From the NCBI GenBank assembly GCA_001770815.1, contig MESD01000115.1, positions 1 through 34,689 of the forward strand: a stretch of DNA of 34,689 nucleotides. The letters are read 5' to 3'. Positions 10,384 to 15,839 of this stretch are shown piece after piece. The notes beneath the pieces were generated by a model. The model did no database searches. It was given only the letters and a program-made list of their open reading frames with translations, and was not told where the DNA came from. The translations under genes and the position numbers were made by a program. The stretch is from Burkholderiales bacterium RIFCSPHIGHO2_12_FULL_69_20. Its GTDB lineage: Bacteria; Pseudomonadota; Gammaproteobacteria; Burkholderiales; Burkholderiaceae_C. How positions within the stretch are numbered: the first letter of the stretch is position 1; the number at the start of each line of letters is the position of its first letter.

Positions 10384-11562
10384 ATGACCCACGTTCGCAA
10401 GCCCCGGCTGATCGCCGCCCTCGGTGCCGTGTTCGGCGCCGCGCTGCTGGCCACTGGCGCCGCCCACGCGCAGGACATCAAGCTGCCGCCTTCGTTGACC
10501 ATGACCGCCTACGACACCGGCTCGTCGGGCTTCAACATGGCAGTGGCCATCGGCAAGATGATGAAGGAGCGCAGCAGCACCGACGTGCGGGTGCTGCCCG
10601 GCGGCAACGACATCGCCCGCCTGGCGCCGCTGAAGGGCGGCCGCGCCCAGGTCTCGGCGATGGGCGTGGGCGGCTACTTTGCCCAGGAAGGCGTGTTCGA
10701 GTTCGGCGCCAAGGACTGGGGCCCGCAGGCGCTGCAGCTGATGCTGGCTTCCACCTCGTGCAACGGCCTGTCGCTGGGCGTGGCCAAGGACGCTGGTGTC
10801 AAGGACATCAAGGACCTGAAGGGCAAGCGCGTGGGCTTCGTGGTGGGCTCACCCGCGCTCAACCAGAACGCACTGGCCGTCATCGCCTACGGCGGGCTGA
10901 CCCGCGCCGACGTGAAGATCGTCGAGTTCTCGAACTACGGCGCGATGTGGAAGGGCATGGTCAACAACGAGGTCGACGCGGCCTTTGCATCCACCATCTC
11001 GGGCCAGGCGCGTGAGGTCGATTCATCGCCGCGCGGCCTGATGTGGCCGACATCACCGGCCGGCGACAAGGCGGCCTGGGCGCGGGTCAACAAGGTCGGC
11101 CCGTACTTCTACCCGCACCAGGTCACCTGCGGCGCCGGCGGCCTGAGCAAGGCCGCACCGCTGGAACTGCCGGCCTATCCGTACCCGCTGTTCGTGGCCT
11201 ACGGCAGCCAGTCGGCCGACGTGATCCACGGCGTGACCAAGTCGATGATCGTCAATTACGACGCCTACAAGGACGGCGCACCGGGTGCCGATGGCCTGGA
11301 GCTCAAGCGCCAGAACCTGACCTGGGTGCTGCCCTACCACGAAGGCGCGGTGCGGGCGATGAAGGAGGCAGGCGCCTGGACGGCCGCCGCACAGCAGCAC
11401 AACGACGCGCTGCTCAAACGCCAGGCCACGCTGGCGGCCGCCTGGGGCCAATACACCAAGGCCGGCGCGCCCGATGACAAGGACGCCTTCTACAAGGGCT
11501 GGATCGCCGCACGCAAGGCCGCCCTGGTCAAGGCCGGCATGGACCCGGTGTTCGAGGAATGA
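10384..11562 (+). CDS. TAXI-family TRAP transporter substrate-binding protein
   Basis: Periplasmic receptor of a TRAP transporter, 392 residues. The start at 10384 has AGGAGA 4 nt upstream. A Sec signal ends at AHA|Q (about residue 29). The mature sequence carries TAXI features: YDTGSSGFNMAVAIGKMM, VLPGGNDIARLAPLKGGRAQVSAMG and DLKGKRVGFVVGSPALNQNALAVIA. TAXI receptors take up carboxylates and some amino acids, driven by ion gradients. The stop codon overlaps the permease start (ATGA at 11559-11562). Confidence 0.93.
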   Translation: MTHVRKPRLIAALGAVFGAALLATGAAHAQDIKLPPSLTMTAYDTGSSGFNMAVAIGKMMKERSSTDVRVLPGGNDIARLAPLKGGRAQVSAMGVGGYFAQEGVFEFGAKDWGPQALQLMLASTSCNGLSLGVAKDAGVKDIKDLKGKRVGFVVGSPALNQNALAVIAYGGLTRADVKIVEFSNYGAMWKGMVNNEVDAAFASTISGQAREVDSSPRGLMWPTSPAGDKAAWARVNKVGPYFYPHQVTCGAGGLSKAAPLELPAYPYPLFVAYGSQSADVIHGVTKSMIVNYDAYKDGAPGADGLELKRQNLTWVLPYHEGAVRAMKEAGAWTAAAQQHNDALLKRQATLAAAWGQYTKAGAPDDKDAFYKGWIAARKAALVKAGMDPVFEE

Positions 11563-13586
11563 AGCCGGCCATCGACACCCCGGCACCCGCGACCACCCAG
11601 GCCGTCGCACTGGACGACGGCGAGGCCGGCAGCAATCCGGCGCGCACCCGCCAGTTGTCCCCCGGCTGGCGCTGGTTGCTGCTGACCTGGACCGTGGTGT
11701 CGATGGCGCTGTGCTTCAACCAGCAGTTCACGCTGCGCTTCTTTGCCGACGTGACGCTGCTCGACACCGAGTACTTCTGGCTGATCCTGGCGGTGCTGCT
11801 GCCGCTGGCCTTCATCCTGTACCCGGCCCGGGTCGGGCGCCAGCTCGACCACGTGCCCTGGTACGACCTGGTGCTGTTCGCCGCCGCCACCGGGCTGGCC
11901 CTGTTGTGGGCCTGGACGGCGCGCGACTCGGCCGGCAACGGCTGGGAGTACAGCGCACCCGACGTGGCACCACGCTGGATGGTCTGGGGCGCGGTGGCCA
12001 GCTGGCTGCTGGTGCTGGAGGCGCTGCGCCGCGCCGGCGGCATGGCGCTGCTGATCATCATGGGCGTGTTTTCGCTGTTCCCGCTGTTCTCGGTGCTGAT
12101 GCCCGCGCCGCTGCACGCGCCGTCGGTCAGCCTGCTGGAGGCGGCGTCGTTCCACATCTTCTCGCGCGAAAGCGTGCTGGGCATCCCGATGCGCGCCTTC
12201 GCCGAGCTGGTGATCGGCTTCCTGGTCTTCGGCACGGCGCTGCAGTACACCGGCGCGGGCACCTTCTTCATCAACTTCGCCTTCTCGCTGTGCGGCCACT
12301 ACCGCGGCGGCGCGGCCAAGGTGTCGATCTTCTCGTCGGGCCTGCTGGGCTCGATGAGCGGCAGCGTGATCAGCAACGTGCTGACCACCGGCACCATGAC
12401 CATCCCGGCGATGAAGCGCACCGGCATGAAGCCCTCCACCGCCGCCGCGGTGGAGGCCTGCGCGTCCACCGGCGCGGTGCTGGCGCCGCCGGTGATGGGC
12501 GCCACCGCCTTCGTGATGGCCGAGTTCCTCGACATCCCCTATGCCCAGGTGGCCCTGGCCGCCGCGGTGCCGGCGGTGCTGTACTACTTTGCGCTGTTCA
12601 TGCAGATCGACGGCAATGCCGCGCGCAACGGCCTGGTGGGGCTGCCCAAGGCCGAGTTGCCGAAGCTGGGCCAGGTGTTCCGCGAAGGCTGGTACTTCAT
12701 CTTCGTGATCATCCTGCTGGTGCTGCTGCTGCTGGTGATGAAGCGCGAGAACTGGGCGCCCTGGCTGGCCACCGCGCTGCTGCTGGTGCTCAACCAGCTG
12801 TTCTCGCCGCAACGCTGGGGCCGGCGCGAGGTGCTGGGCTTCATCGAAGGCAACGGCCGGGTGTTCGTCGAGCTGGTGGCCATCCTGGCCGGTGTGGGCC
12901 TGCTGGTGGGTGCTTTCTCGTTGACCGGGCTGACCGGCACGCTGACCACCGAACTGCTGCACCTGGCCGGCAACTCGCCGCTGCTGCTGATGCTGATGGG
13001 CGCGCTGACCAGCTTCATCCTGGGCATGGGCATGACCATCACCGCCTGCTACATCTTCCTGGCGGTGCTGCTGGCACCCAGCCTGATCAAGGTGGGGCTC
13101 GACCCGCTGGCGGTGCACATGTTCATCATGTACTGGGGCATGGTGTCGTTCATCACGCCGCCGGTGGCGCTGGCGGCGTTTGCCGCCGCCTCGGTGGCCA
13201 AGGCCAAGCCGATGGAGACCGGGCTGGAGGCGATGAAGATCGGCAGCATCATCTACTTCGTGCCGTTCTTCTTCCTGATGAACCCGTCGCTGCTGCTGCA
13301 GGGCAGCCTGGTCGATTTTGCGATGCACTTCGGCACCGCGCTGATCGGCGTGGCGCTGGTCTGCAGCGGGCTGCAGGGCTACCAGCAAGGGGTGGGTGAC
13401 CTGCGGCGCTGTGGCGCGCTGGAGTGGCCGGTGCGCATCGCGCTGATGCTGGGCGGGCTGATGTTCATTGCCCCGGGCGGCGGGCTGATGCCACTGTCGC
13501 CGCTGCAGATGACCGGCGCGGCGCTGGCGCTGACCCTGCCGGCGCTGCTGGTGGCGCGCCTGCTGTCGCGCCAGCGCGCCGGCTGA
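11559..13586 (+). CDS. TRAP transporter fused permease (DctQM-like, TAXI-associated)
   Basis: The protein has 675 residues, mostly hydrophobic helices. The N-terminal third corresponds to the small DctQ unit, the rest to the DctM pore. Typical DctM signatures: GLLGSMSGSVISNVLTTGTM with AMKRTG, the APPVMGATAFVMAEFLDIPY segment, and the late FITPPVALAAFAAASVAKAK. It overlaps the binding-protein gene by 4 nt. Its TGA lies inside a 37-bp palindrome that also contains the stop of the convergent ABC ATPase. Together with the receptor it forms a complete TRAP-TAXI importer of unknown substrate. Confidence 0.93.
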   Translation: MKPAIDTPAPATTQAVALDDGEAGSNPARTRQLSPGWRWLLLTWTVVSMALCFNQQFTLRFFADVTLLDTEYFWLILAVLLPLAFILYPARVGRQLDHVPWYDLVLFAAATGLALLWAWTARDSAGNGWEYSAPDVAPRWMVWGAVASWLLVLEALRRAGGMALLIIMGVFSLFPLFSVLMPAPLHAPSVSLLEAASFHIFSRESVLGIPMRAFAELVIGFLVFGTALQYTGAGTFFINFAFSLCGHYRGGAAKVSIFSSGLLGSMSGSVISNVLTTGTMTIPAMKRTGMKPSTAAAVEACASTGAVLAPPVMGATAFVMAEFLDIPYAQVALAAAVPAVLYYFALFMQIDGNAARNGLVGLPKAELPKLGQVFREGWYFIFVIILLVLLLLVMKRENWAPWLATALLLVLNQLFSPQRWGRREVLGFIEGNGRVFVELVAILAGVGLLVGAFSLTGLTGTLTTELLHLAGNSPLLLMLMGALTSFILGMGMTITACYIFLAVLLAPSLIKVGLDPLAVHMFIMYWGMVSFITPPVALAAFAAASVAKAKPMETGLEAMKIGSIIYFVPFFFLMNPSLLLQGSLVDFAMHFGTALIGVALVCSGLQGYQQGVGDLRRCGALEWPVRIALMLGGLMFIAPGGGLMPLSPLQMTGAALALTLPALLVARLLSRQRAG

Positions 13587-13619
13587 CCGGGCGCCGCCGG
13601 CCCGGCGGCGCCCGGTCAG
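13583..13619. terminator. Perfect 37-bp palindrome containing both convergent stop codons; candidate bidirectional terminator
   Basis: Arms 13583-13600 and 13602-13619 (18 bp each) are exact reverse complements around C13601. The left arm contains the TGA of the TRAP permease (13584-13586), and the right arm contains the TGA of the ABC ATPase (13618-13616, minus strand). The stem is extremely GC-rich. No T tract follows on either side, so termination would not be of the classical intrinsic form. Confidence 0.65.
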
Positions 13620-14434
13620 GCCGCCGCCTGCTGGGCCTGCGCGGCGCGCACCTCCACCCGCACCTGCTCGGTCAGCTCGGCCTTCAGCTCGGCAAACGCC
13701 GGCGTGGTCTTGACCGAGTAATGCCGCGGGTGCGCCAGCGGCACCGCGCGGTCGAGCTTGATGCGGCCGGGCCGCGCGCTCATCACCACCACGCGGCTGC
13801 CCATGAACACCGCCTCGTCGATGTCGTGGGTGACGAACAGCACGGTCTTCTGCTCGGCCTCCCAGATGCCCAGCAGCAGCTCCTGCATCAGCTCGCGGGT
13901 TTGATGGTCCAGCGCGCCGAAGGGCTCGTCCATCAGCAGCATGCGCGGGTTGTTGGCCAGCGCCCGGGCAATCGCCACGCGCTGCTGCATGCCACCCGAC
14001 AGCTGCTTGGGAAAGTGGTGCTCGAAGCCGCGCAGCCCCACCTTGTGGATGAAGGCGCCGGCCTGCTCCAGCTGCTGGGCGCGTGGCAGGCCACGTTCAC
14101 GCAGGCCGAAGCAGACGTTCTGCTGCACCGTCAGCCAGGGAAACAGCGTGTAGCTCTGGAACACCATGCCGCGGTCGGCGCCCGGGCCGCTGATGCGCGC
14201 GCCGTCCAGCAGCACCTCGCCCGAGGTCTGCACGTCGAGCCCGGCGACGATGCGCAGCAGCGTGCTCTTGCCGCAGCCGCTGGGGCCCAGGATGGTGATG
14301 AAGTCGTTCTCGGCCACGGCCAGGTCGGTGGCCTGCAGCGCCACCGTGGGCACGCCGCCCGATTGCGAAGGAAAGCTGCGCGAGACGCCGCGCACTTGCA
14401 GGATGGAATGCGGGGCGGGTTGCGGCATGGTCAT
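13616..14434 (-). CDS. ABC transporter ATP-binding protein, NitT/TauT (SsuB/TauB) type
   Basis: Powers uptake through the permease encoded at 15060-15839. The protein has 272 residues. Walker [10 protein letters not shown] (50-58), Q-loop Q93 in [10 protein letters not shown], signature LSGGMQQR (145-152), Walker B LLMDEP (166-171) and switch His203 in [10 protein letters not shown] are all intact. [12 protein letters not shown] and the length match the nitrate/sulfonate/taurine subfamily. The start overlaps the stop of the ORF6N gene (ATGA at 14431-14434, minus strand), so its translation appears coupled to that unrelated gene. It is last in the hutU-hutH-transporter run. Confidence 0.94.
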
Positions 14435-14994
14435 TTCTTTGGTGAAGCCAGATCGACGGTGAAACCAATGGGGCGGCTGGTGCGCCCGGGCGTCGCAGTC
14501 ATCTGGCGCAGGGCCTCGATCAAGCCGGTGATGGCCTGGTCGTGGGTGGAAAGCTTGCGCTCAAGTTCATCGAGCTTGATCGCCAGCTCTCGGTGGGTGC
14601 CCAGCAGCGAGCGCAACTGCACGAATGCCCGCACCACGAACACGCTCATCTCGATGGCGCGTTGGGAGTTGAGCACCGTGGCCGCCATCAGCGCACCATG
14701 TTCGGTGAAGACCTTGGGCGCGGTGCGCCGGCCACCGCGGCCAGGCGGCTTTGAGGTCACAAGTTGTGACCTCAAAGCCGCCACCTCGACCGCCGTCAGC
14801 TCGAACATGAAGTCGACCGGAAAGCGCAGCGTATTGCGCTTGACCGCCTGGTTCAGTGCCTTGGTCGGCACCCCGTAGAGCGCGGCGAGGTCGCTGTCGA
14901 GCATCACCTTGGCCTCGCGCACCCAGTGGATGTGCTGGGCCAATGCGGCCACAGCCAAACCGTCACCGTCGTCGTTCTCCTGGCGCTTGGTCAT
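14431..14994 (-). CDS. ORF6N-domain DNA-binding protein embedded in the ABC transporter operon
   Basis: The protein has 187 residues from the ATG at 14994, preceded by GGAGG at 8 nt. The ORF6N domain covers about residues 22-108: VMLDSDLAALYGVPTKALNQ, then RNTLRFPVDFMFELTAVEV, LRSQLVTS and RRTAPKVFTEHGALMAATVL. A likely coiled coil follows (about 130-165). ORF6N domains occur in phage antirepressor-like proteins (KilA-N/Bro group) and are often carried on mobile DNA. It separates permease and ATPase genes that are normally adjacent, yet overlaps the ATPase start by 4 nt. Its function here is unknown: local regulator, phage-derived cargo, or selfish gene. A perfect 39-bp palindrome lies inside the coding sequence. 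Confidence 0.9.
   Translation of the reverse strand: MTKRQENDDGDGLAVAALAQHIHWVREAKVMLDSDLAALYGVPTKALNQAVKRNTLRFPVDFMFELTAVEVAALRSQLVTSKPPGRGGRRTAPKVFTEHGALMAATVLNSQRAIEMSVFVVRAFVQLRSLLGTHRELAIKLDELERKLSTHDQAITGLIEALRQMTATPGRTSRPIGFTVDLASPKK
14744..14782. repeat. Perfect 39-bp palindrome inside the ORF6N coding sequence
   Basis: Arms 14744-14762 and 14764-14782 (19 bp each) are exact reverse complements around one central base (14763). On the coding strand it spans residues 72-84 and uses TTG AGG TCA CAA CTT and TCA codons, rare among the GC-ending codons of the same gene. Possibly an operator read by the ORF6N protein itself, a cruciform, or a strong mRNA hairpin. Confidence 0.85.
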
Positions 14995-15059
14995 GTGCTT
15001 GCCCTCCCTCTGCTCGGTATCGCGAGAGTCCGGGATCACGCTCGGCCCAGCCCACGCAC

Positions 15060-15839
15060 TCACCGCCCCAACTGCGCCCACGGGAACAGCCGCCGGTTGA
15101 AGGCCTTGAAGGCCATGTCGCTGACCAGCCCGATCACGCCGATGACGATGATGCCGAAGATGATCTGGTCGGTGGCCAGCAGCGCCTGGCTGTCGGTGAT
15201 CATGTGGCCGATGCCACTGCTGGCACCGATCAGCTCGGCCACGATCACGTAGGTCCAGGCCCAGCCCAGCACCATGCGCAGGATCTCGGCGATCTCGGGC
15301 GCGGCGCCGGGGATCAGCACCCGCTTGACCAGGCTGGCATCGCTGCTGCCCAGCGTGTAGGCGGCTTCGACCAGATCACGCCGGGTATTGCCCACCACCA
15401 CCGCGATCATCAGCACCAGCTGAAAGAAGCTGCCGATGAAGATCACCGCCAGCTTCTGCGCCTCGCCGATGCCGGCCCACAGGATCAGCAGCGGGATGAA
15501 GGCACTGGCCGGCAGATAACGCGCAAACGACACGAACGGTTCGAAGAAGGCTTCGACCGGCTTCCAGGCGCCCATCGCCACGCCCAGCGGCAAGGCCAGC
15601 ACGGCGGCGATGGCAAAGCCACCCAGCACCCGCCACACCGTCATGCCGATGTCGGTGGCAAAGCCCATCTCGGTGAGCAGCGTGTAACCGCTGCGCACCA
15701 TCGTGATCGGGTCGGCCAGAAAGGTCTTCTGCACGAAGCCGCCCAGCGTGGCCACCGCCCACACGGCAAAGAACAGCACGAAGAAGGCGATGCCGAGCAC
15801 GACGCGCGTGCCCGGTGCCACCGGCACCAGCGGTTTCAT
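15060..15839 (-). CDS. ABC transporter permease, NitT/TauT (SsuC/TauC) type
   Basis: Inner-membrane channel subunit of 259 residues. It has an N-terminal helix (VVLGIAFFVLFFAVWAVATL), then a binding-protein-dependent transport fold with about six helices. The cytoplasmic EAA-like loop reads EAAYTLGSSDASLVKRVLIPGAAPEI, where the ATPase docks. AAGGG precedes the ATG. It lies 19 nt after the substrate-binding-protein gene and is followed by a 65-nt gap and the ORF6N gene. Cotranscription with hutUH suggests uptake of histidine, urocanate or another imidazole compound; this is inference. Confidence 0.93.
   Translation of the reverse strand: MKPLVPVAPGTRVVLGIAFFVLFFAVWAVATLGGFVQKTFLADPITMVRSGYTLLTEMGFATDIGMTVWRVLGGFAIAAVLALPLGVAMGAWKPVEAFFEPFVSFARYLPASAFIPLLILWAGIGEAQKLAVIFIGSFFQLVLMIAVVVGNTRRDLVEAAYTLGSSDASLVKRVLIPGAAPEIAEILRMVLGWAWTYVIVAELIGASSGIGHMITDSQALLATDQIIFGIIVIGVIGLVSDMAFKAFNRRLFPWAQLGR

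Follow-up and report, generated by a model that had tools for sequence, protein, structure and literature searches.

Why should a gene carry a long perfect palindrome inside its own coding sequence, and what might read it? The question is raised by an ORF6N gene in the window, by which we mean the whole stretch of 34,689 nucleotides analysed here. The features on which the argument depends are the following:

13616 to 14434, minus strand: ABC transporter ATPase gene, directly downstream of the ORF6N gene; the ORF6N stop and the ATPase ATG overlap as ATGA
14431 to 14994, minus strand: ORF6N gene, 187 aa from the ATG at 14994 (PF10543, E 3.2e-29); the open frame reaches 15081
approximately 14435 to 15059, no strand: inserted single gene, bounded by the permease stop and the ATPase start; the relative L294 lacks it
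14744 to 14782, no strand: 39-bp perfect palindrome, to which the encoded protein is proposed to bind
14750 to 14776, no strand: 27-bp core common to relatives; read outwards from its centre, the half-site is TTGTGACCTCAAA
14836 to 14865, minus strand: predicted recognition helix TKALNQAVKR, residues 44-53
15060 to 15839, minus strand: ABC transporter permease gene, directly upstream of the ORF6N gene

An ORF6N gene inserted in an ABC operon

The PF10543 (ORF6N) match scored 101.5 bits against a cut-off of 27.8; within the 216-aa open frame it spans residues 50-136. The AlphaFold model of the protein (mean pLDDT 84) contains helices at residues 33-40 and 44-53, predicted to form a helix-turn-helix, and a loop near residues 81-90 with a pLDDT of 61. 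A Foldseek search of the model against the PDB returned no match at an E value of 0.001 or below (the best was 0.13), and no sequence relatives were found in the PDB, the best hit (E 0.54) falling outside the domain. Pfam gave no nuclease or recombinase domain in this protein.

In L294, a relative with a 99% identical permease, just 5 nt separate the permease stop from the ATPase start, and this gap is at most 49 nt in 10 of the 15 relatives examined. Since the ORF6N gene is missing from the junction in L294 and in most relatives, it is a recent single-gene insertion. The other five relatives (L296, L297, L298, L302 and L304) have different inserts of about 430-1100 nt at this point; judging from these sequences, the permease-ATPase junction is an insertion hot spot. 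ORF6N genes are sporadically distributed, being present in 26/200 genomes of the family and in 64/349 of the order.

The original prediction had offered, among its alternatives, that the palindrome is a target for recombination or insertion. For the window gene this idea found no support: the insertion is bounded by the gene ends (permease stop and ATPase start), not by the palindrome, and no recombinase accompanied the gene. Moreover, the breakpoints of partial ORF6N genes fall in the palindrome columns only modestly often (8/33 starts and 10/42 ends). An insertion or recombination scar at the palindrome was rejected on these two grounds.

A single, exact palindrome written in unusual codons

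The symmetry of 14744-14782 is exact, with 19 paired bases on either side of a single central base and an end of the pairing at offset 20, and no longer perfect palindrome was found in the window when spacers of 0 to 7 were scanned. It falls in the 5' half of the minus-strand gene; on the coding strand, with flanking bases, it reads AALRSQLVTSKPP. Note that the runner-up (13583-13619; 18-bp arms, GC-rich) is located at a convergent junction, between the gene at 11559-13586 on the plus strand and that at 13616-14434 on the minus strand, and looks like a terminator shared by this pair.

Across the palindrome the minus-strand codons are GCG GCT TTG AGG TCA CAA CTT GTG ACC TCA AAG CCG CCT. Four of these codons are rare both in the rest of the ORF6N gene and in the three neighbouring ABC genes: AGG (0/15 and 0/37, respectively), TCA (1/7 and 0/39), CTT (2/20 and 0/85) and TTG (4/20 and 2/85). 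The third-position GC is 0.57 in the palindrome codons, compared to 0.84 in the remaining gene. Thus, both the perfect 39-bp palindrome and its unusual codon usage, as originally described, proved correct.

The assembly (5.5 Mb in 219 contigs) contains a single copy of the palindrome when up to 3 mismatches are allowed in 27 bases. With the 17-base core, the next-best matches were 2 places at 3 mismatches, while the reversed control pattern gave 7. The search for further copies of the 39-mer, which the original prediction had proposed, therefore yielded no other good copy in the assembly with either pattern, and a dispersed operator of a global regulator was rejected on this basis.

The palindrome is a property of the ORF6N family

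Relatives carry a palindrome at the same place with different letters, the symmetry being preserved by compensatory changes. The half-site pairs include TTGAGGTCA/TGACCTCAA, TTGAGGTCG/CGACCTCAA and TTGAGGTTG/CAACCTCAA, as well as TTAAGG/CCTTAA, TTGAAG/CTTCAA, TTGAGA/TCTCAA and others, and the conserved core extends over 13 pairs per side. We scored a full ORF6N domain as having the palindrome at the same place when at least 9 of the 13 offsets were paired at one of two centres. By this measure it was present in 60/60 full domains of the first relative sets (11 fragments dropped), in 93/93 domains from named genomes (the best 80 of 587 confirmed relatives; 3 fragments dropped), in 37/40 domains from viral contigs (2 fragments dropped) and in 78/81 domains of a later blind set (9 fragments dropped). 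The named set covers Planctomycetes, Omnitrophota, Bacteroidota, Acidobacteria, Elusimicrobia, Verrucomicrobia, Chloroflexota and others.

In 167 of 170 genes with at least 11 pairs the centre is at either of two positions, 2 nt apart: the first base of profile column 64 (135/170) or the middle base of column 63 (32/170). As a consequence the palindrome is read in two codon frames, LRSQxVTS and EVVxNCDHL, and the use of different frames by two gene groups indicates conservation of the DNA rather than of the peptide. Perfect arms of at least 9 were the longest in 43/68 ORF6N domains of relatives, compared to 1.3% of synonymous-codon shuffles, and a chance origin of the palindrome was rejected by this comparison. 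Homologues with ordinary synonymous codons and no symmetry, the outcome that should count against the original prediction, are the opposite of what we found: in the proposed comparison of homologues the symmetry persists across the family, and synonymous shuffles fail to reproduce it.

Some members depart from the simple arrangement. Two or three tandem palindromes are present within single ORF6N frames in L069, L011 and L223 (in L069 in the order LKTQSATSNP, LKSQNGTSNP, SLRSQSVTAN). At least two ORF6N genes lie close together in L086, L088, L090, L109, L117, L151 and L154, mostly with different half-sites; in L088 both genes share TGTGATC, in different codon frames. Members of a distant subfamily (L070, L077, L078 and L243) have another palindrome core, for example GCTGTCCGAATTTCGGACAGC, and other members have none; note that these distant proteins (L070-L078 and relatives) fall outside the profile used.

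The predicted recognition helix covaries with the palindrome of its own gene

We analysed covariation between protein columns and palindrome bases in 186 genes (effective number 110), leaving out the palindrome-coded columns, after 18 of 204 genes with fewer than 9 pairs or another centre had been dropped. The top coupling was that of column 35 with base 4 (MI 1.14 bits, z 67.6). Base 3 was coupled to columns 43 (z 51.7) and 39 (z 35.9), and base 8 to column 31 (z 17.3). Column 85, outside the helix, was also coupled to base 3 (z 14.7); the covariation of columns outside the helix reflects shared ancestry. Columns 31, 35 and 39 are spaced one helical turn apart and all lie within the predicted second helix (window residues 44-53), where they correspond to K45, Q49 and R53.

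These couplings amount to a code. At base 4, Gln35 goes with T (89/97), Glu35 with C (59/59) and Arg35 with G (15/16), the exception being Lys35, with G in 8/12. At base 3, Arg39 goes with G (175/175) and Asn39 with T (7/9), and at base 7 Lys31 goes with C (103/104). The residue-base rule was noted before 90 new loci were fetched. From this blind set, 9/88 genes were dropped as fragments lacking the helix-to-palindrome span and 3 more (fewer than 9 pairs) stayed outside the code count, so that 76 of the 79 full-length genes, those with 9 or more paired offsets, could be scored. The rule gave the right base 4 in 72 of these, one being wrong and three unpaired; the most common base accounts for 36/76. 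Arg39 went with G in 64/64, Asn39 with T in 10/11 and Lys31 with C in 44/44, and the prediction also held in 8 of the 9 genes less than 60% identical to any training protein. A QQ sub-rule, derived from a few close relatives, failed in the viral genes.

We also compared sister pairs: each gene was used once, with its nearest relative, and the two had to share at least 50% identity over the sequence outside the helix and the palindrome. Base 4 differed in 91/100 pairs in which column 35 differed, and in 4/109 in which column 35 was the same; for other columns the maximum was 84% (column 36) and the median 44%. Columns 88, 83 and 101, outside the helix, also covary in this test. Moreover, the coupling extends to bases that are silent for the protein. 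In the LRSQ frame the synonymous third base of Ser is A (TCA) in 103/104 Gln35 genes and G (TCG) in 76/77 Glu35 genes, and in the EVVxNCDHL frame that of Cys is T in 17/19 Gln35 genes and C in 16/16 Glu35 genes. Both reading frames give the same residue-base code, and the coupling at synonymous bases led us to reject a protein-level contact of residue 35 with palindrome-coded residues.

The window gene, with K31, Q35, R39 and the half-site TTGTGACC, follows all three rules. The code predicts that a change of Gln35 to Glu35 should shift the preference from TTGTGACC to TTGCGACC. The leading idea of the original prediction, that the protein reads a palindrome in its own gene, is strongly supported by the covariation of helix and palindrome, by the blind performance of the rule and by the synonymous coupling; as far as sequence comparison can tell, each ORF6N protein very probably recognises a site within its own gene.

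Sites elsewhere and upstream palindromes

The core GGTCRCAANTTGYGACC was found at 36 places in 30 of the 349 genomes, and the reversed pattern at one. When positions were compared by hand, 25/36 sites were within or overlapping PF10543 hits (some of them fragments) and 11/36 were outside. The core sites of L326 and L333, outside these hits, lie in ORF6N remnants by profile, and that of L322 in a remnant by eye only; these three (L322, L326 and L333, in genomes G833, G699 and G635) are decayed ORF6N genes keeping the palindrome core. The loci surveyed, 1.55 Mb in all, contain 324 strong palindromes, of which 229 fall within ORF6N domains, and 29 of the remaining 95 are within 250 nt upstream of such a domain, mostly of the same type. 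In L330, which holds one more of the 11 core sites outside the hits, a 13/13-pair ORF6N-type palindrome (centre 1291) is located just before the start of another gene, whose product resembles an AlbA_2-type protein.

An upstream palindrome of any kind is present in 34/256 genes with enough upstream sequence, 39 palindromes in total, of which 31 are ORF6N-type. Strong ones, 40-200 nt upstream of the domain, are found in L032 (which has three), L123, L124, L092, L158, L163, L182 and others. They are often of a different code from that of the protein of their own gene: base 4 matches the own code in 13/31 (17 when four QQ rows are counted as Q), the chance expectation being about 13.6 for all 39 upstream palindromes. 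Since the upstream sites are not enriched in the own code, a simple autorepressor that combines a promoter operator with the internal one is unsupported. In the window gene itself, the 300 nt preceding the domain hold no palindrome with at least 10/13 pairs, and an autorepressor with a promoter operator was not retained as a candidate.

Bro-N genes carry internal palindromes

Bro-N (PF02498) genes from the same 349 genomes were fetched as a negative control. However, 18 of 43 chromosomal domains had at least 11 pairs, compared to 2.8% of synonymous shuffles. As the Bro-N genes carry palindromes of their own, there was no clean negative-control family. When viral loci (the best 80 of 595) were included, 88/112 Bro-N genes had at least 10 pairs in the region, and in 71 of these 88 the codon position and the phase are the same. 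After 33/112 genes had been dropped, 63/79 had exactly reverse-complementary codons on the two sides of the core (the viral loci being again the best 80 of 595), and the residues paired in this way are V-D, V-H, T-R, L-Q, T-S and R-P. Bro-N bases 4-7 are coupled most strongly to columns 31 and 36-44 for the most part, and high values were also obtained for 76 and 79; ancestry is uncontrolled in this case. Loci L338-L507, from chromosomes and phages, have internal palindromes of the type AAGGGT...ACCCTT that are coupled to the helix region. By these comparisons, Bro-N genes appear to carry the same kind of internal site as ORF6N genes.

A model for the internal site

We propose, with a probability of roughly 0.6, that the palindrome is the cognate two-fold symmetric site of the protein that it helps to encode, with self-repression as the most likely effect. 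The recognition helix of one subunit would read one half-site, with contacts, counted from the centre, of residue 31 to bases 7-8, residue 35 to base 4 and residue 39 to base 3, and a homodimer would be bound to the palindrome as duplex DNA. The site lies about 230 bp inside the gene, where a poorly ordered loop of the protein may tolerate the forced codons. The least certain step, to which we give an even chance, is that the dimer on the internal site blocks RNA polymerase, so that the mobile gene represses itself together with the genes cotranscribed with it. The gene would be kept turned down wherever it had landed, without the need of an operator at its own promoter; for a single gene landing in foreign operons, only an intragenic operator would be certain to travel along. 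In the window, such a roadblock would also lower expression of the downstream ABC ATPase gene. More tentatively, and with some doubt, ORF6N and Bro-N genes, both large families of phage-type regulators, might be self-addressed: the exact site of their own helix would be placed inside the DNA-binding domain in any codon frame that fits, reader and site co-evolving, and copies on chromosomes, prophages and phages would be recognised, limited or outcompeted through a readable amino-acid-to-base code.

Alternative explanations

Could the palindrome act in the RNA instead? The original prediction had considered an mRNA hairpin controlling the downstream ATPase, and translation or decay could be controlled in the same way. 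Perfect DNA palindromes always fold as RNA too, and pairing is weakest at the offset beside the centre (171/262), as a triloop would permit; relaxed pairing at this point would be expected of an RNA loop and of the centre of a dimer site alike. An RNA stem, however, should favour G-U over A-C mismatches. Among 262 genes, mismatches at offsets of at least 2 were of the G-U type (G-T/T-G) in 48 cases and of the A-C type (A-C/C-A) in 60, and this lack of an RNA-specific tolerance favours duplex DNA over a hairpin. Rfam gave no family at gathering score in 14000-15600, and a hairpin leaves the coupling of helix and site at synonymous bases unaccounted for. We rejected this candidate, which we consider very improbable. 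Even more improbable is that ancestry or protein contacts produce the coupling artificially, with the symmetry coming from a mutational process such as the template-switch correction of quasi-palindromes. It is true that some columns outside the helix covary too, but sister pairs that switch residue 35 nearly always switch base 4, the coupling is present at silent bases with the same code in two frames, and a mutational process is blind to the recognition helix.

A reading by the own protein for identity or mobility, that is, to mark, count, exclude or compete with copies or for homing, is unlikely, although it deserves more weight than the two previous possibilities. In its favour, site and reader are inseparable and travel as a single gene, the distribution of the genes is sporadic, and adjacent ORF6N genes can be of different code (e.g. 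L090, L109, L117 and L151). Moreover, the sites are nearly confined, over the loci surveyed, to ORF6N genes and their upstream regions, and those upstream are often of another code, as if meant for a different ORF6N protein. The missing nuclease and recombinase domains, the gene-end boundaries of the window insertion and the modest breakpoint counts in partial genes argue against it. The palindrome might also resemble an iteron of a replication origin, with the product of the same gene as its reader. The ori of phage lambda lies in the O gene and is bound by the amino-terminal half of O (PMC4488673), and some ORF6N genes (L069, L011 and L223) have more than one palindrome; the window gene, however, has a single site in a chromosomal ABC operon, and we regard an iteron as quite improbable. 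A cognate site bound as duplex DNA by the encoded protein is the reading that we retain.

Significance and comparison with known systems

If this reading is correct, a common domain that has no target in the literature searched would be given one in DNA, together with a residue-to-base code that works, and the binding sites of thousands of uncharacterised ORF6N and Bro-N genes could be read from their own sequences. The Bro-N residues paired via reverse-complement codons (63/79 exact; viral loci, the best 80 of 595) show with unusual clarity how a signal in the DNA can dictate amino acids. If it is true that the site governs the recognition of copies, it would provide a mechanism of competition between mobile genes.

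We found no description of an internal self-site in ORF6N or Bro-N in the open-access literature searched, nor of any internal site that is shared by a whole family and obeys a residue-to-base code. ORF6N (PF10543) and Bro-N (PF02498) are domains of phage antirepressor-type proteins, and the window protein belongs to the former; an ORF6N-KilAC protein is listed as an antirepressor in a phage paper (PMC6591296). Like homing or selfish single genes, the window gene is a single-gene insertion that would have its own DNA recognition, but it differs from them in having no nuclease domain and in that the gene contains the whole site, which the insertion does not split.

The likeness to lambda O and ori-lambda (PMC4488673) is that of a DNA-binding protein with cognate sites in its own coding sequence, the binding by ORF6N being predicted from sequence. 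Lambda differs in having four 19-bp iterons and an AT-rich segment, with a role in replication. ORF6N genes usually have one odd-centred palindrome and encode a different protein family, and nothing in the window points to an origin. Tandem iterons of the lambda O type are not present in the window gene, which has one site; two or three occur only in a few relatives.

Intragenic operators are known, and PurR is an autoregulatory repressor with an operator inside its own coding region. PurR-type repressors are similar to the proposed ORF6N system in having an operator within the regulator's own coding region. The ORF6N case would differ from the PurR type in that the internal site is near-universal across phyla and is written in two codon frames, whereas upstream palindromes accompany only 34/256 genes.
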